From Nitrosopumilus cobalaminigenes (GTDB lineage: Archaea; Thermoproteota; Nitrososphaeria; Nitrososphaerales; Nitrosopumilaceae), in contig NZ_CP026993.1 of the NCBI RefSeq assembly GCF_013407145.1, forward strand, positions 1,324,590 to 1,388,589: DNA of 64,000 nucleotides. Direction: 5' to 3'. Below, piece after piece: positions 28,152 through 40,996 of this stretch. Each line of letters opens with the position of its first letter. The stretch's first letter is position 1. The notes below the pieces were generated by a model that saw only the letters and a program-made list of their open reading frames with translations, ran no database searches and was not told the DNA's origin. The position numbers and the translations under genes were made by a program.

Positions 28152-31100
28152 TTATTTAGGAGGTTTTTGTCTCATGATGAAAATCAAAACAATTCCGATC
28201 GCAATTCCAATGACTATACCAATTCCCATACCAAGACTAAATGAGGGCTCTATTTCAGAATCAATAGAATCTTTTGGAGTTTTTGTTTCAATGATCGTTT
28301 CAGAATCTTCAGAATTTGTTGAGAATGGTTTTATTTCAATTTTATTTTGAGTTGAATCAATGTTCATGTCAGGAGAAATATTTGTAAATTTTGCTGCAAG
28401 TGTAATTGGCTCAGTAGTTGAAATTCCACCAAACAAAGTTGAATGTGTTAAAAGTGTGTAAGTACCAGTTTGATTTATTGGCACATACAAAACAGTTGAA
28501 GTATCATCTTTATTTTTCACTGGGAAAAAACCTCCACCTTGACTAAAAATTGAATTACCAAGCCAATCAAGCGAAGCCCATCCCATAAAATGTCCAAAGA
28601 CTCCAGACGGAACATTAGTTTGTATTATTTCTCCAGACGGATCCATAACAAATACAGATAGATTTGTGTCATTACTTGTCCATGAAAGTTCTATAGCTGC
28701 TGTATTGATAGATTCATTTTGAATATCAAAATAATATTGTCTCCAATCACCTGCCATGTATCTATTAACCATATCAAATGCACCTTTTGTGTATCCATTT
28801 CCATAAAGAACATCATCACTAGAAGTTCCTTTGATTAGAATTGTAGAATCATTTTCAGTGACAGGTTGTTTAATGACAAAGGATATCGGGGCATTAACAG
28901 TATGTGTCTCACCTTCAAAAGTTAAAAAACCCTGATAGACTCCAGTTTGAAAATCATTTGGAGTTACTAATGTCATATCAACAGTTGATGAATCTTGAGG
29001 AGGAACGGAAATTGTATCAGATTTAGACCAAAGTAATGACCATTTTTCTTTTTCATAATGACTAGCAGAAATTGTGTAATCCATTGATGTAGAATTTTGT
29101 TTTGTATCACCTAACCAATATGAATATCTGGTTGGAACAGGGTAAACACCAACAAGTGGAACTCCATCAAATTTTTCATTAGGTTCTGAAACTCTAAGTT
29201 CTTGAACAGTTCCCCAAGATCCGGCTCTATTCACCATTGAAAGTTCATCACTTGTAATTTTTGTATCGTTATTATTATCAAGCCAATCATAAAGGTACAG
29301 AGAGGCAATTTTCAAATCATCTGCATAAACATCAGAGGTACTATTCATAAAATCATGAAATTTAAAATTAACATTTAGAATCATTAAAGAAGATTCATCA
29401 GGGATAGGATCATCATTATTAAAAAATGTCAATAGTTCAGAAGAGTTTCCAAGTTCAGATAATTTAACATAATTTGGAATGAATGTACCAGTATCATTTA
29501 AGATAGAATCTTGTTGTTGAGGAATTGTAGTACCGTTAAATTGTGTTTTTGAGATTAAAGACAAAGTTTGTGGCTTTACATTGATTGTAAGAGTATCATT
29601 TGTAGGGTTGTCAATAGTGAAAGTTGTTGTTGTTCGTTCTCCAGGAAGTAAATGTCCTGCAAACCAGCTTGTCATTGGAAATGAACGTATAGGTAGATTA
29701 AATTTTTCAAATCCTATTGAAGTGGAATTAATTTTTTCTATTGCAGGGTCAAGTATATTTTTTATATTTTTATACGAACCATCATTGTACACAATAAAAA
29801 CTCCATGTTCCCCATTTACATAATTCAATGCAGTTTCAACATTTGTCAAACCAGATCCTTGAGTAAGTGGATCATTCTGAAGATCAGTTGCAGTAGACAT
29901 TAAGATATTTTTGATAGTGAAAGAATCATAGTCTAAAGATTGTTTTTTCATTTCTTCAATTAGAACTGCTGCACTTCCAGATACAATCGGTGCAGCCATA
30001 CTAGTACCTCCAAATAATGAAAAGGATTCTTCTTTGGAATCTTTGTTTACTTTTAACATGTTTGATGGAACAAATCCATGAGCCCCTATACTCATAACAT
30101 CAGGTTTTGGATCTCCAATTATTCCTGGTCCTCTACTAGAAAAATCAACTACATTGTTTGAATGAGTTGTTGTATTTCCAAATCTAGGTTGATCTTTGAA
30201 AGGTCCATATCCAACAAAAACATTGTTTGTTGTGGCACCTACTGAAATTCCAAATGGTGATGCATTAGGCAATCCAATTGTACCATATCCATGACCAGAA
30301 TTTCCTGCACTGGAAATTATTGTAATTCCAGGATAATCATCATCCAAAGAAGTAGGGGTTGTCAACATACTTAGAATTAGTGATAGAATATCCATTCCAG
30401 GAGATGCTTTGAAGGAAGGAAAATTTGAAACTCCCCAACTATTGGAAATTATATCAACTCTGGGTTGACCCAAAAATTTCCATGTGTGATCTTTATTTTC
30501 AAATCCTGCAGACCATAACCATCCGTATACAGTATCACCAAACCACAAAGCCTTTACTGGTACAATTTTTGCATCAGGTGCTACACCGGTAATAGAATAT
30601 TTTTTTGAGTTGTTGTAAATGTCGTAAACTTCTTGTCCACGAGAAGTAATAGATGCCGCACTAGAAGTTCCATGACCCATAAAATCAGTCATCAAACCAA
30701 AAAATTCACCATTTGAGTCTAGTCCAGGTAAAAGAGTTCCATTAATTGCTTGTAGAGTATCATCAATATCTGTAGAATTATTTTTAATTACACCGTAGAC
30801 ATCAAGAACTTGTGCTCCAATGGTTCCCGCACTGTAATCATTTTTTCCATCATCATTTGAATCATAGACGAGGAATTCTTTTCCACTTCCTAATACAATT
30901 GGTTTCTCATCTGTGAAATCAAAATCATAATTTGGTTCTTGTCCTCGCTCTAGATCAAATCTAGTGTAATCTTCCCAAGAAGTACTCAAATCAGGAATTA
31001 TAGTGTCATAAACTCCAGATGTAAAAGAGTCAACTACAAGAACTGGAACAACTTGTATTTTTGCATATTGTCCTCCTAATGCACCTTGATAAATAACACC

Positions 31101-31955
31101 TAAATGATAAATTCCACTTTTTGATTTGATATAATTTCTATTATCATCGCCAATTTTCATATCAATAGCAAGAGTTCCATTAAAAATTACTGATGAACCA
31201 ATTTGTGGAAAAAAGGAATTGTATATTGGTATCTGGCTTCCTTGTCCTCCTTGAGAAACATCAAGGAATACACCTTCACGTGTAACATATGCTGATGATG
31301 TCATATGAGAAGGAATGGGTTTACTATAATTTCGTATAATTTCATTTTCATCAATATATGCAAAGAAAGTTGCATTCGTTAAAACAATCCCTTGTCCATC
31401 CGGATCAAGCATTATAGGATGATTAATTTTATCTCGAGCAAGAGAATGTTGAATGTCAGGATTTGAAAAGTCTACACCTGTATCAACAATAGCAATTATG
31501 GTTCCATTTCCTGAAGAATCATATTTTTTCTTTGCCAAATCAGAACCAGTGATGTCACCAATTCTAGAAGCATCTTTGATTTCTTTATCAGATGAATGAT
31601 AATCCAATTTAAAATCTTCAACAACATAATACCCTTGTGAAATTAAATTAGAAGCAGAAGATTCAGAAAGAACAGATACTGAGAAAAATCCATAATCAGA
31701 TTGAATATTATAAATTGAATTTGTTTTTAAAATATTATTTTTTTGTAAATCAGTACCAAAAATTAAATATCTTTTGAAATTATTTTCCAAGAAAAAATCA
31801 GAGTCTATTTCTATAATATCAGAATCAAAGGATAGTGTGTTTTCCATGTCTTGGTCCAAATCGACAGGAATGAAAGCATGTGAATTTGCAATCATTGGTG
31901 AAAAAAGTAATACTGCAAAGAAAATCGCCACTTTGGGCATTAATTGGTTTTTCAT
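28152..31955 (-). CDS. Giant membrane-anchored subtilisin-like (S8) protease
   Basis: A 1267-residue cell-surface protease. It has a signal peptide (MKNQLMPKVAIFFAVLLFSP), the S8 triad Asp in IVDTGVD (about 157), His in GHGTSSAAS (about 427) and Ser in GGTSMAAPIVSG (about 650), then about 550 residues of beta-sandwich-like domains, and a C-terminal membrane helix (GMGIGIVIGIAIGIVLIFIM) before a short basic tail. A large insert separates Asp and His. The frame continues upstream to 32012, but that overlaps the preceding gene and would hide the signal peptide. The ATG at 31955 is chosen. It follows the stalk-protein gene after 16 nt. Confidence 0.93.
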   Translation of the reverse strand: MKNQLMPKVAIFFAVLLFSPMIANSHAFIPVDLDQDMENTLSFDSDIIEIDSDFFLENNFKRYLIFGTDLQKNNILKTNSIYNIQSDYGFFSVSVLSESSASNLISQGYYVVEDFKLDYHSSDKEIKDASRIGDITGSDLAKKKYDSSGNGTIIAIVDTGVDFSNPDIQHSLARDKINHPIMLDPDGQGIVLTNATFFAYIDENEIIRNYSKPIPSHMTSSAYVTREGVFLDVSQGGQGSQIPIYNSFFPQIGSSVIFNGTLAIDMKIGDDNRNYIKSKSGIYHLGVIYQGALGGQYAKIQVVPVLVVDSFTSGVYDTIIPDLSTSWEDYTRFDLERGQEPNYDFDFTDEKPIVLGSGKEFLVYDSNDDGKNDYSAGTIGAQVLDVYGVIKNNSTDIDDTLQAINGTLLPGLDSNGEFFGLMTDFMGHGTSSAASITSRGQEVYDIYNNSKKYSITGVAPDAKIVPVKALWFGDTVYGWLWSAGFENKDHTWKFLGQPRVDIISNSWGVSNFPSFKASPGMDILSLILSMLTTPTSLDDDYPGITIISSAGNSGHGYGTIGLPNASPFGISVGATTNNVFVGYGPFKDQPRFGNTTTHSNNVVDFSSRGPGIIGDPKPDVMSIGAHGFVPSNMLKVNKDSKEESFSLFGGTSMAAPIVSGSAAVLIEEMKKQSLDYDSFTIKNILMSTATDLQNDPLTQGSGLTNVETALNYVNGEHGVFIVYNDGSYKNIKNILDPAIEKINSTSIGFEKFNLPIRSFPMTSWFAGHLLPGERTTTTFTIDNPTNDTLTINVKPQTLSLISKTQFNGTTIPQQQDSILNDTGTFIPNYVKLSELGNSSELLTFFNNDDPIPDESSLMILNVNFKFHDFMNSTSDVYADDLKIASLYLYDWLDNNNDTKITSDELSMVNRAGSWGTVQELRVSEPNEKFDGVPLVGVYPVPTRYSYWLGDTKQNSTSMDYTISASHYEKEKWSLLWSKSDTISVPPQDSSTVDMTLVTPNDFQTGVYQGFLTFEGETHTVNAPISFVIKQPVTENDSTILIKGTSSDDVLYGNGYTKGAFDMVNRYMAGDWRQYYFDIQNESINTAAIELSWTSNDTNLSVFVMDPSGEIIQTNVPSGVFGHFMGWASLDWLGNSIFSQGGGFFPVKNKDDTSTVLYVPINQTGTYTLLTHSTLFGGISTTEPITLAAKFTNISPDMNIDSTQNKIEIKPFSTNSEDSETIIETKTPKDSIDSEIEPSFSLGMGIGIVIGIAIGIVLIFIMRQKPPK

Positions 31956-31971
31956 TCTTATGTTATTATAA

Positions 31972-32943
31972 CTATCTTCTTCTTGCAAGGATTGCCACTT
32001 GTAGTGCAACAATTAATCCAACTGATGCAATGATGGGTAATAACAATGCGTTAAGTTGTGCAGAAGATTCACTGATAGATTTTGCGGATAGTGCAAAAGT
32101 TCCAATATTTTCATCAATTTGGCTACTTGCATATTCTAAAGTTGTGTCAAATCCTGCAATTTCAGATTTTAGAATATCTAGTTCGCTTGATGTTTCATCT
32201 AAAATTGAGTTCAGTTTAATTATTTGATCAGAAATACCACCCAAATCTTGGCTTAAGACATTAGTTGCAGCAGAGCCATGAGATGTTGTTCCTTGACTAA
32301 ATGCCACTACATGAAATACATGGGTTCCTTCTTCAATTGGAGTGTAATCTACATAGTATAATCCCTGATGTAATGTTTTGAATGAATTTGTCAATGTAAC
32401 AGATATTCCAGATGGGAGATGAACATGTGTTGTTCCCAATAATTCCTTAGGTTCATTTCCAATTAAAAGGCCATCACTAGTTGTTTGAACAAAAACTCGA
32501 ATTGGTTGACCAATTGCTGCAGTTTCAGGAGCGAAAACTAAAGTATTCACAAATCTTTCTACAGTCACATCAAGTAAGTCTGTGGTAGATGAAAATTTAA
32601 TATCAATTTTTTGTGATGCACCATTTTGTTCTGTACTGATCACTTCAACAGTATATGTTCCATATGGGAAATCAGTTGATGGTTCAGGCCATGTTAATAA
32701 TGCATAATTAAATGAACCATCTTTTTCAGTAGTTATTTGGTCAAATTTTGCAATAGACTCATCTGGTGCAAAAACTCTAATTATTAGATTTTCTTCAGGT
32801 AAGCCATTTCCATAAACTTGTAAGTTATGTGCAGGAGAATACACTTTACTATTTGTAGATAAAACTAATTCTTCTGCAAAAGAATTCGGTATGTTTATTA
32901 TTAATAGAACAAAAAGACACGAAAAAAGAATTTTAAATTTCAA
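31972..32943 (-). CDS. Secreted, C-terminally anchored stalk-like surface protein
   Basis: A 323-residue protein. Signal peptide (MKFKILFSCLFVLLIINIPN), about 210 residues of beta-sandwich sequence (two or three Ig-like domains, e.g. SPAHNLQVYGNGLPEENLII and GQPIRVFVQTTSDG), then a heptad-like segment at about 240-295 (ISDQIIKLNSILDETSSELDILKSEI...), a C-terminal transmembrane helix and RRR. This order, outer beta domains on a coiled-coil stalk set in the membrane, resembles S-layer anchors such as Sulfolobus SlaB, but no homology is claimed. It lies between the S-layer gene and the subtilase gene. Confidence 0.7.
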   Translation of the reverse strand: MKFKILFSCLFVLLIINIPNSFAEELVLSTNSKVYSPAHNLQVYGNGLPEENLIIRVFAPDESIAKFDQITTEKDGSFNYALLTWPEPSTDFPYGTYTVEVISTEQNGASQKIDIKFSSTTDLLDVTVERFVNTLVFAPETAAIGQPIRVFVQTTSDGLLIGNEPKELLGTTHVHLPSGISVTLTNSFKTLHQGLYYVDYTPIEEGTHVFHVVAFSQGTTSHGSAATNVLSQDLGGISDQIIKLNSILDETSSELDILKSEIAGFDTTLEYASSQIDENIGTFALSAKSISESSAQLNALLLPIIASVGLIVALQVAILARRR

Positions 32944-33017
32944 TTTAATTAATTGTTAATCTTCTCCTAGATATTACTTCTGGAAAAATTGTCTATAACT
33001 TACGTTAAGAAGGATTC

Positions 33018-33033
33018 AAAAAAAAGAAAAAAA
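33018..33033 (-). terminator. Oligo-T termination tract after the S-layer gene
   Basis: On the minus strand, a run of eight and a run of seven T residues are separated by one C, about 13 nt after the S-layer stop codon. Runs of this kind are sufficient archaeal terminators; no hairpin is needed. Confidence 0.65.
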
Positions 33034-33045
33034 GGATAATTTGAA

Positions 33046-36000
33046 CTAGTTTACGTTGACAGTTGTACTAACTGGTGGTGATAATGCCGTTGGATTATCT
33101 ACTGATTCCCACACGAATGCAGTTGCTGTGTAGCTACCACTTTCGGTTGGAATCCATGATAATGCCGGGCTGAATGATTGACCAGCAGATAGTGAACCTG
33201 TAATCCATGCTAGTGAGACTGTAACACCGTTACCATCTTGAATCTGTACCAAGTATGCGAATGTTTGCTCTCTATCCTGACCATTTGCTAAGTCAGCACT
33301 GATTTGTACCTGTTGGTCAACGGAGACAGTATCTAAACTGTTACCGAATGCATCAACGGTTCTCAAGTTAGCAGCTGGTGCTCTCTCGAGAGGTGGTACG
33401 ACAGTGCCGATTAGTGAAGTGGCAGTAATATCGAGTTCATCTGCAGTTGTGTACGGATCTGGTAATGTATTGTCCTCATATTCTGCGGTGACAGTGTCAC
33501 CTTCTGCGACTCTGAGTCTATGACCAGAAGATTCATCAGAAACTGTAAAGAATACAGTACCCTCGAAAATTCCAGTTGCCTCATTAGTCTCAGTTACAGT
33601 AAGGTCAATACCTCCGGCATCGGAGTCAGACCACACGTCGACATCGAAGTTGTCGACTGCTTCTGGATCTAAGTTCATGTCTGGATCAATTACTCTTACA
33701 ACACCTGTTCCGCTAGCTGGATAACTTGCTTCTAACCATTGTACCTCACCGATATTCCATCTGATTAATGATGAACCGACTACAGTTTCATCCTCTGAGA
33801 ATTCAAAGGAGACAGTAAGTCCGTCATCGTCGTCAGTTTGTAGGAATCCATCAGTTGGGCCAGAACCAGTGGTTCTTGGGTTAGTATCGTCATTCTCATC
33901 ACCATCAGCATCGTGTGCGAATCCAGTAAGTATAACCTCACCAGTAAAGATGCCTGTGTCAGTTCCAGTTTCAACAAGTTTGTAGTTGTCAAGATCGAAT
34001 CCTCTGGTGCTGATCTTTATTGGATCAACATCAGTATTTCCGATTTCGTCAACTAGGTCACCGTCGAAGTTGTGATCTGGAGCGACAATAGTGATATAGA
34101 CTTTATCAGTCCATGAGTAGACTTTTTGATCAAGTTCTACAGTTGCACCAAAGTTAGAAGTAAAGATTGTCAAATTGACATCTTCATCTTCATCACCAAC
34201 AAAGTCAGATCCACTTGGACCCCAGTCAGTATATTCTAGAATAATTTCCTCTCCTCTTTCAAGGCGGTCGTTATCTAGTTCTTCAGGGATTTCGATAACA
34301 ATCTGGAAGATACCAGTGCTGTCACCTGTTTCTCTAAAGTTACTTGGTTCTGGGTCGAAGGCTGCTGAGTTAGTTGTACCACCAAGGTTACCCATGGTAA
34401 TAGTAGCTGCGTCAGAATCCCATTCGATTAAGTCTAAGTCATATGTTTCTGCACCATCATTGTCCAAATCAAGGTCTGGTTCAATGAGGGTTAAGATCAT
34501 ATCGGAGCCGATAATGTATACAGACTTGTCAGATTGTAAGACACCATTTCTAAGGTCAAAGGTAGCGGAGTCAGTAACAGTATTTGCATCACCAGAAGCA
34601 TCAGCTGGGTCAGTGTATTCTACTTGGAGGATATCTCCTTGTAAGATACAATAATCACCTGATGTTGCGGCAACGTCAAATCTGCTTGTGGCTGCGTTAT
34701 CTCCAGTTGCTGAGGTTCCATTCGTTGGAGTGAAATCTTCAGTATCTGGGCAAGTTTGACTTGCTGGACCGTCAGTATATCTAATGTCAAAGTCAATCTC
34801 GAAAATACCTGCATCTGGTGCGATTTCTACTAATGGTCCGAGTTGTCTTGCGACAGCACCGGAGTTTGCAGTTGTGCTGATTCCATTGTCATCAACATCA
34901 ATTACACCATCAACGACTGTTGGGCTTCCAGCATAGCCTAGCACGACTGAGTCAGAACCTCTGATAACAGAGATCTTGACTGGTCCTACTGAAGCTGCTG
35001 CTGTAAACTCAGCAATCTCGTCTTCACCACTTGCGGATATATCAAAGTCTGGGTCGTTAACTCTAATGTGAATTGTAAGATCTCCATTCTGTAAGAATTC
35101 ACCGCTTTCAATTTCATTATCGGTGTCAGTCATACCAGTTGCGTGAACTGGGAAGATTGCTCTACCTTCTGGGGTTTCGGTAGTGGTTACACTCTCGAAA
35201 TCAGCTGGTACACCAAATGGAACTGGATAAACGGTTCTATCTAGACTAACAGAACCAGTATTGGCTCTGACGCCTGCAGAATCACCGACTTCTATAATTT
35301 CACCAGATGCATCTCTGAAATCAACATAGTTGACTTCAATATCGAGACCGGTTACGGACTCGGTGAGGCCTGGATCTGCTGTAGTTCCTGCTGATGGACA
35401 ATAGACTGATGGAATTTGGAAGTCACCAATGAAGACACCAGAGTCTTGTGAGGTTTCAACTAGAGTAAATCCAGTTGCACCTAGACCGGTATCATCAGTG
35501 TTTTCTTCTAATTCGTTAGAGCCTGTTGCTGTTTCACCATCGCTGGTACATGTGTTAACTGCTGGAGTTGTCCACAATGTATCATCGAAGGTAATATCTA
35601 GGATTCTTCCTAGATCACCAAAGGATAAGTCGGTTGGAAGTCCTGCTTCTCCTACTTGATCATAGACATCATCAGTTGTAGTTGAAACTACAGTGTAGAT
35701 ATCTACCAAGTCGGAGTCAGTGTTAAGATCTAAGTCTTCTAGTGTGATAGTAACTGTGTCAGCTGTTTTGTAAGAATCGGAATCAAAAGATACAATACCA
35801 GAGTGGCTAGGAGCCTCTTCTTGGTCTGCAACTTGTGTTGATACACCATCAGCACCTAGGTCCAGATAATTAACTCTTGGAGAGTCTTCATCTGTTAGGT
35901 CTTCAATTACGATGAATGATGGATCATCTGCAATTGGGGATAGACCAGTATAGGTATCTGCATCAAGAATATTGACTTGGTTGACCATGATGTATTCCAA

Positions 36001-38235
36001 GCTACCTTCGAAGGTGCTTGTATTATCACCAGTTTCTTCCACTTCAATTCTTATGATTTGGTTTGCGACTCTTTCGCCGGATTCATCACCATCGGATTCA
36101 AATCCGAAGGTAAAGAAGTCAGCTACAACAGATTCGTTAATTGCGCCATCAATTGCATAACCGGAGTTAAGACCATCATCAAATACAAACAACAAACCAA
36201 TATTATCAGAGTCATCCATATCAAAGATTGCCTTGACTACTTGGTCAAGATCTGCAGATATGTCAGTTCCACTGGTTGAATTGATTAAGCTGATTGATTG
36301 AGCATCGGTATCATTAACTAATGAGATAGCTGTTAAACCTGCAGTGGTATTATTACCTGAAAAGATATTCGTACCAGTTGTTTGGTTTAGCAAGTATACA
36401 TCGTATGATCCAGTGCTGTTGATACTTCTTAAGTCCATGTTAAACAAGTTAAATCCGTGAAGTCTATCACTAATGTCTGCTCCTTGCGGATTAGAAATTG
36501 AGTTGAATAGTTCTTCAGCTGTTACGCTTAAGTCAATGATTAATGCTTTAGCATCAGTCAGACTAGCGCTTGGATCTATGATTGCTCTTTTACTAAATTT
36601 ATCGACTACAACAGTTGCAGTTACGTTACCACCAGTTGTATTTAATGCGCTCAATGATTTTACAGGATCACCTTGTCCTCCTGGGAGGGCAGTGTTGACT
36701 TCTGTAAATGCAATTGTTGCATTGGTAAATACTGCACTTTGTCCACCGGTACCACCAGTTCCGTCATCACCTAAAGTGAATGGGTTACCAGTTTGTAATG
36801 ATGGGATAAGTGGAACATCAGGGTTGTTAAGATCAAGATCTTCATCAACTCTACTGTTCTGGTTTGCATCTGAATCAACTAATACTACTGGAATTTCTTC
36901 ACCAGAGTTCCATTCATCATCGGCTGGTTGGATATCGATTGAACCGAATCCAAATCCAACGAGAACAGTCTTTGGTGTCTCATTGTAATCAATGCTTGCT
37001 GATACACCTCTGTTGGCATCGCTTGCGATAGCCAAGTTTGATACATCAGAATCATCATAGTTTGCAAAGAGACCAGAGTTTGATGATAGTTCGGTAAATG
37101 TTACTGGTTGACTTCCAGGTGCAATTGTTCCGTTTCCGGTTGCAACTGTGGATGCTTCAACGGTTGCGGTTCCGTTAGTAACAGAATCATCGTTGTCGAT
37201 AATTCTTAATACTTCGTTACCTACACCTTGTGCATCTAAGTCAATAAGTAAGATACCGTTATCTTCAAACATAAAAGCATCAGTTCCGAGACTGTTGGTT
37301 AGGTCTACAGCACCAGCACTACCGTCAGCAGCAGTTGCTCCATTTTCATCGAACAATTGATAGAAGACAGTGTTGTTAGTTGCGATAGTTCCCCAAGTCC
37401 AAGAATCTTCGTCTGTTGGGTCAATGTTTAGTTGTACATCAGTTAGTGTGAGGTGTACGTTTGCACCAGTTGGGAATACAGTTCTATCTGATTCTAAGTT
37501 GGCAAATTGGTCAACTGTATCAAAAGTTAATGTGGTTGATTGAGCACCACCACCTTTGTTATATGTGACTACAACGCTGCCTGTTGGATTTAGATCATAT
37601 AGTTGGATCATTGGGAAAGCGTTAGCTGGAAGGCTAAGTTGTCCAATTCCATTTCCTGTTGCTGTATTTCTGTTAGCTGTTTTGTTTTCTCTGATTACGT
37701 TTTGGTAATCTACTGTTCCAAATGTTCCAGCTGCACAAACGGTTGATAGACCTGAAGAGGTCACATTACCATTTACTGGCTGGGTTGGGAAGAAGACACC
37801 TACTGTATCGGTGAAGGATATGCCTGCTGCTGTTGTTGCAGATGTGGCATCACAGCCTGAACCGAAGTCCAGACCTTCTCCTGGTAAACCGACAGTTGCG
37901 TCTGCAGCTAATGCTGCATCAGAGTCTGCAAAATAACCATACCAATTACCGTCAGTAGCTTGGGCCATTCTCAGGTCTTTGCCTTGTACGGTAACGTCTG
38001 GTTCACCTTTACCCTCATCTGTATCACTAATATCAGAATCAATTACAACTACTTCGATGACCATAGGGCCAGCCATGTAGTTGTCAAATTGAGAGTTTTC
38101 TGCGGAAACAAATAGGTTAGCGTTGGCTGCATGTGCTGCTGGCATTACACCAGGAATAGCAAATGTCATACCACCGGCTAACATAATTGTCATTAATGTA
38201 AGACTAGTTATTTTACGTCCTATTTCGTTATTCAT
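33046..38235 (-). CDS. S-layer protein, Nitrosopumilus type
   Basis: A 1729-residue secreted protein. The signal peptide MNNEIGRKITSLTLMTIMLA ends near AHA, and mature sequence begins ANANLFVSAE. I recognise this N-terminus as that of the Nitrosopumilus maritimus S-layer protein (about 1730 residues). The body is a chain of acidic Ig-like domains in which DxDxDxDxD-type loops (DPDFDISASG, EPDLDLDNDG, APDHNFDGDL, DPDMNLDPEA) recur, consistent with divalent-cation binding. No transmembrane anchor is present. Base composition is visibly richer in G and C, with a narrower codon set than its neighbours, as expected of a very highly expressed gene. Confidence 0.95.
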   Translation of the reverse strand: MNNEIGRKITSLTLMTIMLAGGMTFAIPGVMPAAHAANANLFVSAENSQFDNYMAGPMVIEVVVIDSDISDTDEGKGEPDVTVQGKDLRMAQATDGNWYGYFADSDAALAADATVGLPGEGLDFGSGCDATSATTAAGISFTDTVGVFFPTQPVNGNVTSSGLSTVCAAGTFGTVDYQNVIRENKTANRNTATGNGIGQLSLPANAFPMIQLYDLNPTGSVVVTYNKGGGAQSTTLTFDTVDQFANLESDRTVFPTGANVHLTLTDVQLNIDPTDEDSWTWGTIATNNTVFYQLFDENGATAADGSAGAVDLTNSLGTDAFMFEDNGILLIDLDAQGVGNEVLRIIDNDDSVTNGTATVEASTVATGNGTIAPGSQPVTFTELSSNSGLFANYDDSDVSNLAIASDANRGVSASIDYNETPKTVLVGFGFGSIDIQPADDEWNSGEEIPVVLVDSDANQNSRVDEDLDLNNPDVPLIPSLQTGNPFTLGDDGTGGTGGQSAVFTNATIAFTEVNTALPGGQGDPVKSLSALNTTGGNVTATVVVDKFSKRAIIDPSASLTDAKALIIDLSVTAEELFNSISNPQGADISDRLHGFNLFNMDLRSINSTGSYDVYLLNQTTGTNIFSGNNTTAGLTAISLVNDTDAQSISLINSTSGTDISADLDQVVKAIFDMDDSDNIGLLFVFDDGLNSGYAIDGAINESVVADFFTFGFESDGDESGERVANQIIRIEVEETGDNTSTFEGSLEYIMVNQVNILDADTYTGLSPIADDPSFIVIEDLTDEDSPRVNYLDLGADGVSTQVADQEEAPSHSGIVSFDSDSYKTADTVTITLEDLDLNTDSDLVDIYTVVSTTTDDVYDQVGEAGLPTDLSFGDLGRILDITFDDTLWTTPAVNTCTSDGETATGSNELEENTDDTGLGATGFTLVETSQDSGVFIGDFQIPSVYCPSAGTTADPGLTESVTGLDIEVNYVDFRDASGEIIEVGDSAGVRANTGSVSLDRTVYPVPFGVPADFESVTTTETPEGRAIFPVHATGMTDTDNEIESGEFLQNGDLTIHIRVNDPDFDISASGEDEIAEFTAAASVGPVKISVIRGSDSVVLGYAGSPTVVDGVIDVDDNGISTTANSGAVARQLGPLVEIAPDAGIFEIDFDIRYTDGPASQTCPDTEDFTPTNGTSATGDNAATSRFDVAATSGDYCILQGDILQVEYTDPADASGDANTVTDSATFDLRNGVLQSDKSVYIIGSDMILTLIEPDLDLDNDGAETYDLDLIEWDSDAATITMGNLGGTTNSAAFDPEPSNFRETGDSTGIFQIVIEIPEELDNDRLERGEEIILEYTDWGPSGSDFVGDEDEDVNLTIFTSNFGATVELDQKVYSWTDKVYITIVAPDHNFDGDLVDEIGNTDVDPIKISTRGFDLDNYKLVETGTDTGIFTGEVILTGFAHDADGDENDDTNPRTTGSGPTDGFLQTDDDDGLTVSFEFSEDETVVGSSLIRWNIGEVQWLEASYPASGTGVVRVIDPDMNLDPEAVDNFDVDVWSDSDAGGIDLTVTETNEATGIFEGTVFFTVSDESSGHRLRVAEGDTVTAEYEDNTLPDPYTTADELDITATSLIGTVVPPLERAPAANLRTVDAFGNSLDTVSVDQQVQISADLANGQDREQTFAYLVQIQDGNGVTVSLAWITGSLSAGQSFSPALSWIPTESGSYTATAFVWESVDNPTALSPPVSTTVNVN

Positions 38236-38260
38236 GTTATTGATAATTTTCTTAAAAATT

Positions 38261-38270
38261 AGTATAAAAG
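38261..38270 (-). promoter_or_regulatory. TATA box of the S-layer gene
   Basis: The plus-strand agtataaaag reads cttttatact on the minus strand, centred about 30 nt before the ATG at 38235. It gives a very short leader. The identical decamer occurs at 6779-6788. Confidence 0.8.
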
Positions 38271-38450: not shown

Positions 38451-39782
38451 TTATGCCTTGATCTCTTTTCCAAGAAGAGTTTTGTATAATGATATAGCAT
38501 CAGTCTCATCTTTTGGACCAACTACAACAGCTGACCCTCTTTTCATAAAACTAACAGATAATTCATTTGTTCTCAAAGATAATCCCAAGTCACCCTGATT
38601 ATCAACAGTGAAACCTTTTTGTTTTCCAATAGCAGTAACACCATTTACATCAAGATCAAATGTTTCCGTCGGAGTAATAGAGTAAGTTCTCTTTCCACGA
38701 TTGCGCCCACATAGTTCTTCTAAAATTAATTCTTCTTTTGTAACAACATCTAGTTTACCTGAACCACATATTGGACATTCATCAGCTCTAAATGTTCTAG
38801 TACTATTGAAATCAAGATTTTCTAAATCAATATGTAGAATTCTCTGAGAGAGATTAGGAATTTTTCCAAGAATAATTTTAACAGCTTCTGCAACTTCAAT
38901 TGCACCAACAATAGAAAGAATTGGGGGGTGAACGCCTTCAATACTACATGTTGGCATTGTATCCTCATCTAATTCAGGGAACATGCAAAAGTAACATGCA
39001 GATTTTTTTGGTAAAATAGTAAACGCTTGTCCAGATGTTCCAACTGCAGCTCCTGTAACAAATGGGATTTCAAACTTCACACATGCTTTATTCAATGCAT
39101 ATCTTGCATTAACACTATCAAGTGCATCAATTACAACATCACAACCTTCAACAACTTCTAATGCAGTATAATCATTTACAGATACAGCTAAAGCTTCAAC
39201 ATTACAGTCAGGATTTAGTTTCTGTAATTTTTTTGCAACTACTTCAACTTTAACTTGACCAACATCATCCTCATCAAACATCATTTGTCTATGTAAATTT
39301 GATAGTTCGATTACATCTCTATCAACAATACGCAAAGTTCCAACTCCCATTGTAGCCAATCTAGAAATTATTGGGTGTCCTAAACCACCTGTTCCAACAA
39401 CACAAACTTTAGCATTTTTTAATTTTAATTGTCCACCATATCCAATTTCTTCTAGCATCACTTGTCTTGAATATTTGTCAAGTTCTTTTGGGGATAATTC
39501 TTCTGAACCACCTGCAACCGCAGGCAATATGTAAACTTCATCACCATCATTTAGAGAAGTGTCAATACCATTTGCAAATTTTGCATTTTTGCCATTAATG
39601 TAAATATTAATCAAAGATCTGGGAGTTCCATCACCTTCTAAAACTCTACGCTTAAAATCATCACCTAATTGTTCAGAAATTTTTGAAAATGCATCCTGTA
39701 AAGACTCTGCAGAGATTTCAATTTTTTTCTCACCACCGCCAGCATTTAGAACAGATGGAATAGTGAATGTGATATTTGCCAT
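38451..39782 (-). CDS. MoaD/ThiS-like domain fused to a MoeB/ThiF-type E1 enzyme
   Basis: A 443-residue fusion. Residues 1 to about 91 are a ubiquitin-like MoaD domain ending VYILPAVAGG; the E1-like adenylation domain follows at once (SPKELDKYSRQVMLEEIGYGGQ). The ATP loop is VGTGGLGHP, with DRDVIELSNLHRQ, the zinc pairs CYFC and CPIC, and the E1-conserved TCSIEGV. A C-terminal domain (ELCGRNRGKRTYSI to the end) is the common extension of MoeB-type proteins. It would activate a carrier for molybdopterin, thiamine or tRNA thiolation, or protein modification. The start overlaps the threonine synthase stop by 1 nt. Confidence 0.9.
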   Translation of the reverse strand: MANITFTIPSVLNAGGGEKKIEISAESLQDAFSKISEQLGDDFKRRVLEGDGTPRSLINIYINGKNAKFANGIDTSLNDGDEVYILPAVAGGSEELSPKELDKYSRQVMLEEIGYGGQLKLKNAKVCVVGTGGLGHPIISRLATMGVGTLRIVDRDVIELSNLHRQMMFDEDDVGQVKVEVVAKKLQKLNPDCNVEALAVSVNDYTALEVVEGCDVVIDALDSVNARYALNKACVKFEIPFVTGAAVGTSGQAFTILPKKSACYFCMFPELDEDTMPTCSIEGVHPPILSIVGAIEVAEAVKIILGKIPNLSQRILHIDLENLDFNSTRTFRADECPICGSGKLDVVTKEELILEELCGRNRGKRTYSITPTETFDLDVNGVTAIGKQKGFTVDNQGDLGLSLRTNELSVSFMKRGSAVVVGPKDETDAISLYKTLLGKEIKA

Positions 39783-40996
39783 TAGTTTACTACCGCCGAT
39801 ATTTCACCAATGTCAGCTTTCATCACAGTTGGTTTTTGTAATACTTCCATTATAGATTCAGTTGCTTTTAATCCATTACCAGTAACATAGCATACTACTT
39901 TGTCATTTGCATCAATCTTTCCTTGTTCAACCATTTTTTGAAGAACAGATATTGAAACCCCTCCTGCAGGTTCTGTAAATATTCCTTCAGTCTGTGCAAG
40001 TAATAAAATTGCATCAAGTATTTCTTTATTGTTTGATTCTTCTGCAAATCCATTATACTGTTCTAATCGTTTCAAAACATATCTACCATCTCCAGGATCA
40101 CCTATTGCTAAACTTTTTGCAACGGTGTCAGGATTTTCAACTGGGATTACTTCCTTACTATTTTTCTTAAATGCATCAACTATAGGTGCACAACCATGTG
40201 GTTGTGCAGCAATCATATGGATATTTGAAACATTATCAAGTAAGGAAACAGTCTGTAATTCTTCAAATCCTTTACAAATTGCATTAAGCATTGCACCACT
40301 TCCTACAGGAATAATCAATTGATCAGGTATTTGCCAATCAAGTTGTTCTGCAACTTCATACGAAAATGTTTTGGATCCTTCAACATAATGAGAACGCATG
40401 TTAATGTTTACTACACCAATTCCTTTACTGTCTCCAATTTGTGCAGCAATTCTATTTGCATCGTCATATGTTCCATCAACTGCAATGTAGTTTGCACCAT
40501 ATGATAATGCTTGAGCAATTTTAGCCATCTCAATATTACTTGGTGCAAATACATGACATGGCAATCCAGCTTTTGCTGCATGCGCTGCAGTAGCTGATGC
40601 TAAATTTCCAGTTGACGCACAACCAACTGCAGTTAATCCAAATTCTTTTGCTTTTGATATTGCAACTCCTGCAGGTCTATCTTTGAAAGAAAATGTTGGA
40701 TTTACAGAATCATTTTTTATGTAAAGATTGTTTAATCCTAATTTTTTTCCCAAATTATCAGCTTTGATAAGAGGAGTCATACCTGCACCAATGCTTACAA
40801 TGTTTGATTTATCTTCTATTGGAAGTAATTCAAAATATCGCCAATAGGTTTGTTCACGATTTGCAAACGTATCTTTAGTAAGTGTGGGAAAATCATATTT
40901 TACATCAAGTGGACCAAAACAGTCTTCACAAACATACTTGAAAGCAGTGTCATATTCTTTTTTACATTCTCTACATTGTAATGATGTTCTAGTCAA
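39782..40996 (-). CDS. thrC: Threonine synthase
   Basis: A 404-residue PLP enzyme converting O-phosphohomoserine to threonine. An N-terminal zinc-ribbon-like segment (CRECKKEYDTAFKYVCEDC, four Cys) precedes the core. The Schiff-base lysine is in NPTFSFKDRP, the phosphate loop in GCASTGNLASA, and a glycine-rich loop in LIIPVGSGAML. The length is that of the archaeal/bacterial short form with the zinc-ribbon. It is translationally coupled to the MoaD-MoeB gene. Confidence 0.94.
   Translation of the reverse strand: MTRTSLQCRECKKEYDTAFKYVCEDCFGPLDVKYDFPTLTKDTFANREQTYWRYFELLPIEDKSNIVSIGAGMTPLIKADNLGKKLGLNNLYIKNDSVNPTFSFKDRPAGVAISKAKEFGLTAVGCASTGNLASATAAHAAKAGLPCHVFAPSNIEMAKIAQALSYGANYIAVDGTYDDANRIAAQIGDSKGIGVVNINMRSHYVEGSKTFSYEVAEQLDWQIPDQLIIPVGSGAMLNAICKGFEELQTVSLLDNVSNIHMIAAQPHGCAPIVDAFKKNSKEVIPVENPDTVAKSLAIGDPGDGRYVLKRLEQYNGFAEESNNKEILDAILLLAQTEGIFTEPAGGVSISVLQKMVEQGKIDANDKVVCYVTGNGLKATESIMEVLQKPTVMKADIGEISAVVN

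Follow-up and report, generated by a model that had tools for sequence, protein, structure and literature searches.

The closest described system is the S-layer of Sulfolobus acidocaldarius, whose anchor protein SlaB possesses three beta domains and a trimeric stalk with a 132-residue helix (PMC10903991). SlaB homologues encoded by ammonia-oxidizing archaea (AOA) have already been published (Nature 2024, Cell Rep 2021, mBio 2024). According to PMC11153153, N. maritimus encodes a SlaB homologue, and most Nitrososphaerota have a minor homologue of this kind whose transmembrane domain is C-terminal. Additionally, SlaA and SlaB (A0A060HR06) of N. viennensis are listed in PMC8640222, which cites Kerou et al. 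2016, and a chart of slp and slaB across cultured AOA shows neither gene in Nitrosocosmicus (PMC11559005). The locus described here lies in a window of 64,000 nucleotides from Nitrosopumilus cobalaminigenes (assembly GCF_013407145.1, contig NZ_CP026993.1, positions 1,324,590 to 1,388,589 of the forward strand), part of a 1.56-Mb genome on a single contig. In this window, the gene of an S-layer protein is followed downstream by that of a 323-residue protein, referred to here as the anchor. Because of its homology to SlaB, its stalked architecture and the long-kept pairing of the two genes, we put at about 0.8 the probability that this protein anchors the S-layer to the membrane in the manner of SlaB.

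The anchor itself is of a kind already known, since PMC11153153, PMC8640222 and PMC11559005 describe SlaB homologues. Based on its architecture and its uniqueness in the genome, we take it to belong to the same group as these Nitrososphaerota proteins. A C-terminal transmembrane domain is common to both, and the accessible parts of the three papers do not mention the histidines described below. A literature search for Nmar_1546 and Nmar_1547 as candidate locus tags of the N. maritimus SlaB gave only PMC11153153, in which Nmar_1546 does not occur.

The anchor shares with SlaB (8qox_B, NF040788) an export-type start, N-terminal beta-sandwiches, a coiled-coil stalk, a C-terminal membrane helix, an S-layer gene context and profile homology over the full length. 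It differs in having two beta domains where SlaB has three, and its heptad stretch of 63 residues lies in an 89-residue helix, shorter than the 132 residues in S. acidocaldarius. Unlike the SlaB-like proteins of other lineages, it carries a complete histidine quartet, found in 0 of 29 of theirs. Its ectodomain is without any N-X-S/T sequon.

Homology of the anchor to SlaB

The relationship to SlaB was recovered by several kinds of comparison. The NCBIfam SlaB profile (NF040788) matches residues 1-127 of the anchor (E 6.7e-8). Conversely, a profile built from anchors of the order only recovers the six proteins that pass the NF040788 cut-off (E 9e-20 to 1.8e-16), with most of the match contributed by domain 1. 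The remaining SlaB-like proteins of the phylum are recovered at E 3.9e-31 to 9.5e-5. When a profile of 30 members of the anchor family was searched against PDB sequences, the top match was 8qox_B (E 3.2e-15), followed by coiled coils at E 3e-4 or worse. This chain is titled 'Conserved membrane protein' in the search, and in the Foldseek listing the entry is identified as the S. acidocaldarius proteins SlaA and SlaB. The same chain ranks first in a Foldseek search with the anchor model (E 1.1e-9).

The clearest alignment was obtained with hhalign, using as target 16 sequences of family f30, presumably Sulfolobaceae. Anchor residues 1-323 align with SlaB residues 1-414 (probability 99.6, E 3.1e-24), and residues 145-323 still align when the first domain is removed (probability 96.5, E 7e-10). 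Specifically, the second beta domain of the anchor is aligned with the region of SlaB immediately before the stalk, and the central part of the alignment is interrupted by a long gap. Because of this gap, the anchor is read as a two-domain form of the three-domain SlaB. The three consecutive beta-sandwich domains of the Sulfolobales type are absent from the anchor model, which shows two. Judged by its sequence, the anchor is a homologue of SlaB without the middle beta region. Besides the anchor, only one protein in the genome reaches the SlaB profile at E <0.01, and by eye no membrane helix closes its frame. Four stretches fitted a pattern sought for viral copies of the anchor, none of which was confirmed.

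Architecture of the anchor

Hydropathy identifies two hydrophobic segments in the anchor, at residues 5-23 and 300-318. Between residues 235 and 297, large hydrophobic residues occupy 72% of the a/d positions and 11% of the others, a heptad bias that none of 5000 shuffles reached. The AlphaFold2 model, built from 73 sequences, places beta strands at residues 27-117 and 132-230, followed by one helix (residues 234-322) that combines the stalk with the membrane segment. The mean pLDDT is 85.9; the pTM is only 0.40, so the arrangement of the domains relative to each other is uncertain. Hydrophobic segments at both ends with none in between are found in 76 of 80 sequences, a set that includes one unrelated coiled-coil match. 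The anchor thus has the layout of SlaB, in which an export-type start is followed by outer beta domains, a stalk with heptads and a hydrophobic helix at the C-terminus. An earlier note on this DNA, made from the sequence alone, had proposed a stalk anchor as in SlaB, with a signal peptide, outer beta domains, a heptad-like stalk and a membrane helix at the end; hydropathy, heptad statistics and the AlphaFold2 model bear out this layout, and the homology found with NCBIfam, PDB, Foldseek and hhalign carries the comparison with SlaB beyond layout.

The ectodomain contains zero N-X-S/T sequons, while shuffled versions average 2.8 and have none in 3.8% of cases. A sequon-free ectodomain is found in 48 of 152 anchor relatives, and 18 of 29 SlaB-like proteins elsewhere in the phylum have 8-16 sequons.

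Conservation of the S-layer and anchor gene pair

The synteny sample consisted of 78 anchor loci out of 76 genomes, 77 of which are informative, because L043 starts 207 bases before the anchor gene. A 6-kb contig (G146) and the partial anchor matches in G029, G014, G040 and G004 were left out, and additional named genomes served the alignment and were excluded from the adjacency count. L091 was counted as adjacent; tblastn overlooked its C-terminal S-layer match, which other searches show. The anchor gene stands beside the S-layer lattice gene in the window and at 66 of the 77 informative loci, with the S-layer gene upstream on the same strand, and the adjacency is therefore conserved. The spacing is 8-247 bases at 65 of the paired loci and 4.3 kb at the other, L059, where an insertion intervenes. 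The pair is kept even at L101-L116, where identity to the best S-layer match falls to 24-40%; among these loci, L101-L108 and L111-L116 have no subtilase and cytochrome genes nearby.

Searches of 150 genomes of the order found anchor matches in 82 (E 1e-3) and S-layer matches in 85 (E 1e-10). Three genomes of the window's family (G118, G137 and G145) have no anchor match. This probably reflects assembly breaks, because the main S-layer gene of these genomes is either absent, reduced to a short fragment or truncated where a contig begins.

Individual genomes yielded further observations. One amoA-positive genome of family f3 (G002; L239 and other contigs) has 23 places that match the S-layer protein, all from residue 1199 onward. 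Another (G130; L248 and L249) has S-layer genes with equal-scoring C-terminal ends in convergent pairs and a single full anchor match elsewhere; an inversion between the S-layer copies is conceivable. Locus L165, titled Nitrosomonas sp. (isolate OFTM190), encodes a protein 85% identical to the anchor of the window, so the contig is apparently archaeal and mislabelled.

The C-terminal domain of the S-layer protein

The S-layer protein matches PDB 8c8k ('Cell surface protein') over its whole length (E 0), which belongs to the entry family of N. maritimus NmSLP. It is this neighboring lattice protein, not the anchor, that is the full-length relative of NmSLP. By hydropathy, its only hydrophobic segment is N-terminal (residues 9-27), with none at the C-terminus.

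In 34 full-length relatives, the last 124 residues have a mean identity to the window of 90%, as opposed to 61% for residues 38-1605, and they are the more conserved part in 34 of 34; the preceding block, residues 1501-1600, is higher still at 95%. This domain recurs in 41 of 41 genomes of the family, at 1-7 places in each (E 1e-6). The genome has five further proteins with the domain at their C-terminus (130, 141, 392, 614 and 369 residues), each beginning, as judged by eye, with a hydrophobic stretch; the match of the 369-residue protein is weak (E 2.5e-6). The proteins of 130 and 141 residues consist of little beyond the hydrophobic start and the domain. Foldseek places the modelled domain (pLDDT 87.5) nearest to Wzt (E 1.9e-5, TM ~0.7), with RbmA and a CARDB domain lower down. 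Since the nearest fold is the carbohydrate-binding domain of Wzt, the C-terminal domain could bind the anchor, an envelope glycan, or both. It is a candidate docking module for the anchor. No earlier description of this shared domain was found in the accessible part of the literature on AOA S-layers.

Two shorter S-layer relatives of this genome lie ~20 kb apart (G000:C1:311240-313759 and 334008-335093), one matching S-layer residues 35-978 and the other residues 1367-1728.

The histidine quartet of the anchor

Four histidines of the second beta domain (H173, H175, H192 and H211) are all present in 143 of 152 sequences of the order, and in 130 of the 139 distinct ones; three remain in one sequence, one in two, and none in six. 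The quartet is complete in all eight f7 sequences and in 2 of 3 from f12. Outside the order, 29 of 30 loci (L123-L152) gave a usable frame, L138 being the one that gave none; these 29 SlaB-like sequences represent other parts of the phylum, and the quartet is wholly absent from 27 of them, reduced to one histidine in 2 and complete in 0. Both sequences of the order with a single histidine (L076 and L080) come from the window's own genus, L080 reading QHYQ at the quartet. Of the 16 domain positions that are at least 97% invariant in holders of the quartet, only three quartet histidines and L160 are changed in them. Across the 152 sequences, the histidines are conserved and lost together, and such near-block loss is the pattern expected of a metal site. 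Given this conservation, our hypothesis is that the four histidines probably form a metal-ion site in the domain next to the stalk.

A strict link between the quartet and ammonia oxidation was rejected, since G012 and G022 have the quartet with no amoA match and G001, G035, G053 and G102 show the converse. The accessible literature on archaeal S-layer anchors yielded no earlier description of the quartet. As to whether copper regulates the S-layer of N. viennensis, the terms S-layer and slaB are absent from the main text of PMC7785015, an absence that says little.

More speculatively, the anchor may be a metalloprotein whose quartet binds Cu or Zn and may also dock the shared C-terminal domain of several secreted proteins, a combination that we propose only tentatively. 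If so, the bound Cu or Zn would stiffen the stalk, control the grip on the S-layer, or buffer copper near the copper enzymes of ammonia oxidation, and the shared domain would bring several different secreted proteins to one anchor.

Attachment of the S-layer

The S-layer is believed to raise the ammonium concentration in the space beneath it. The question of its attachment to the membrane in marine ammonia oxidizers is now tied to a specific gene pair, which is kept in genomes of the order both with and without an amoA match. The analysis also indicates which segment of the S-layer protein is the likeliest to dock, along with a candidate metal site in the anchor. In the proposed arrangement, the anchor would be exported and its helix would sit in the cell membrane, while its stalk would oligomerise by analogy with the Sulfolobus trimer. 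The beta domains would grip the S-layer protein at the end that faces the cell, with the conserved C-terminal domain as the likeliest contact, with the histidine quartet probably binding a metal ion next to the stalk.

Several observations weigh against identifying the protein as the SlaB-type anchor. NF040788 is an equivalog (S-lay_SlaB_Mtsph) with a cut-off of 700 bits, and the anchor fails it at 31.8 bits; genomes with a passing protein number 0 of 150 in the order and 6 of 397 in the phylum. In a six-frame search of the genome, a 720-residue frame scores slightly better with the SlaB profile than the anchor does (E 5.5e-8 versus 1.1e-7); it was rejected as an alternative SlaB, because by eye its C-terminus has neither a membrane helix nor a stalk. 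VIA-align places 31 complement or macroglobulin chains above SlaB (Z 11.9-13.3 versus 11.9 at rank 32), so the fold alone is undecisive for SlaB identity. These chains reach Z 13.3 over residues 25-231 of the anchor; among the matches listed, only SlaB covers the whole anchor (residues 22-323, rmsd 25). The S-layer gene is not upstream at 11 of the 77 loci (genera g5, g8 and g11). At 10 of these, the anchor is still with the subtilase, Rieske and cytochrome b genes, and the S-layer gene of G031 (L243) remains with frames that look ThiF-like and threonine synthase-like by eye, which places the break in that genome between the two genes of the pair. The longest S-layer-like gene of G002 is without an adjacent anchor, and a search of that genome for the anchor was empty, with five weaker matches to the SlaB profile. 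Finally, the SlaB homologue of N. maritimus is reported to be considerably scarcer than NmSLP (PMC11153153), and the same paper offers the speculation that the S-layer protein is anchored through its tenth domain as well. The earlier note had argued that the S-layer protein, having no membrane anchor of its own, needs a partner. The lack of a C-terminal membrane helix holds; a stoichiometric need is doubtful in view of the scarce homologue and the proposal for the tenth domain.

The abundance argument has been used in PMC11153153 to propose that the S-layer anchors itself. Its C-terminal domain would then bind envelope glycolipids or glycans, and the SlaB homologue would be a minor reinforcing or spacing element. 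The similarity of this domain to Wzt, whose C-terminal domain binds carbohydrate, fits such a role, as does its position at the end of several other proteins with an export-type start and, by eye, no C-terminal helix after it. However, Ig-like folds are so common (1932 PDB matches at E up to 10) that the match to Wzt shows no function, and the S-layer/SlaB pair is conserved at 66 of 77 loci. Self-anchoring is thus possible but rather doubtful. It is very unlikely that the second domain makes the anchor a Cu/Zn-handling surface protein with S-layer attachment as a secondary role. While the completeness of the quartet in 130 of 139 distinct sequences, and losses that remove all or most of it, would suit a metal-handling protein, the anchor gene also adjoins the S-layer gene where the quartet is missing (L109, L110 and L113-L116), which indicates that attachment, not metal, is the shared feature. 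Moreover, the quartet is kept in two genomes with no amoA match and lacking in four that have one.

The neighboring subtilase, which the earlier note had joined to the anchor as a processing enzyme, could act on the S-layer protein or on the anchor. Its domain is genuine (Peptidase_S8, E 1.2e-34), the ATG at 31955 is the most likely start of its gene, and the protein carries a hydrophobic segment of its own at the C-terminus. Adjacency to the anchor at 61 of 78 loci favors such a role, but no match at E 1e-10 was found in 5 of 20 genomes searched (G104, G140, G012, G022 and G003), all of which have the S-layer/anchor pair; G104 and G140 belong to the same family as the window and are near-complete. 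The subtilase lies away from the pair in each of the six genomes searched from f7, presumably Nitrososphaeraceae. On this distribution, the subtilase is not a conserved partner and was rejected as a necessary one, and processing of either protein by it is unlikely.

The locus and the intergenic region

On the minus strand, the gene order is threonine synthase-like, ThiF-like, S-layer protein, anchor, subtilase, Rieske and cytochrome b (Table 1). The threonine synthase-like, ThiF-like, Rieske and cytochrome b labels reflect the look of the sequences, with no search behind them.

Table 1. Coordinates of features in the window and of related genes at other loci
Feature	Position	Strand	Basis
Threonine synthase-like gene	39782-40996	-	Label from sequence appearance
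ThiF-like gene	38451-39782	-	Label from sequence appearance
S-layer protein gene, 1729 aa, 8c8k relative, no C-terminal membrane helix	33046-38235	-	Full-length PDB match, hydropathy
S-layer C-terminal domain, residues 1606-1729, candidate docking domain	33049-33420	-	Conservation, recurrence, model pLDDT 87.5
T-rich tract after S-layer stop codon, terminator-like	33018-33033	-	T-tract at 53/78 orthologues
18-base leader element AGAAGTAATATCTAGGAG upstream of anchor gene	32964-32981	-	Conservation at 45/78 orthologues
SlaB-type S-layer anchor gene (probable), 323 aa, TTG start	31972-32943	-	SlaB homology, AlphaFold2 architecture
Anchor first beta domain, residues 27-117, most SlaB-domain-1-like part	32593-32865	-	AlphaFold2, NCBIfam SlaB profile, 8qox_B match
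Anchor second beta domain, residues 132-230, with H173, H175, H192, H211, H222	32254-32550	-	AlphaFold2, conservation, hhalign
Anchor coiled-coil stalk, residues 234-298	32050-32244	-	Heptad statistics, continuous predicted helix 234-322
Anchor C-terminal membrane helix, residues 300-318, then short basic tail ending ARRR	31990-32046	-	Hydropathy 2.56, conserved C-terminus
Membrane-bound subtilase gene, frequent but non-obligatory neighbor	28152-31955	-	Peptidase_S8 match, ATG at 31955, distribution
Five other genes bearing the S-layer C-terminal domain	L154:1483-1875, L155:1429-1854, L156:688-1866, L157:1495-3339, L158:1477-2586		

The S-layer and anchor genes are separated by 102 bases. A T-tract lies within 160 bases upstream of 53 of the 78 anchor orthologues, a count made with no chance control, and the 18-base leader is found upstream of 45 of 78 (up to 3 edits). 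Allowing up to 3 mismatches, the leader occurs once in the window (0.11 expected); allowing up to 2, it occurs once in the genome. The intergenic sequence suggests a terminator of the S-layer gene and then a separate start for the anchor. The T-tract would end the S-layer transcript, and the anchor would be transcribed separately and perhaps more weakly, in line with the scarcity reported for N. maritimus (PMC11153153). At L059, the insertion of ~4.3 kb (L059:7098-11419) carries frames that look cyclase-like, TPR-like and membrane-protein-like by eye; it replaces the T-tract side of the intergenic region, and the leader on the anchor side is retained.

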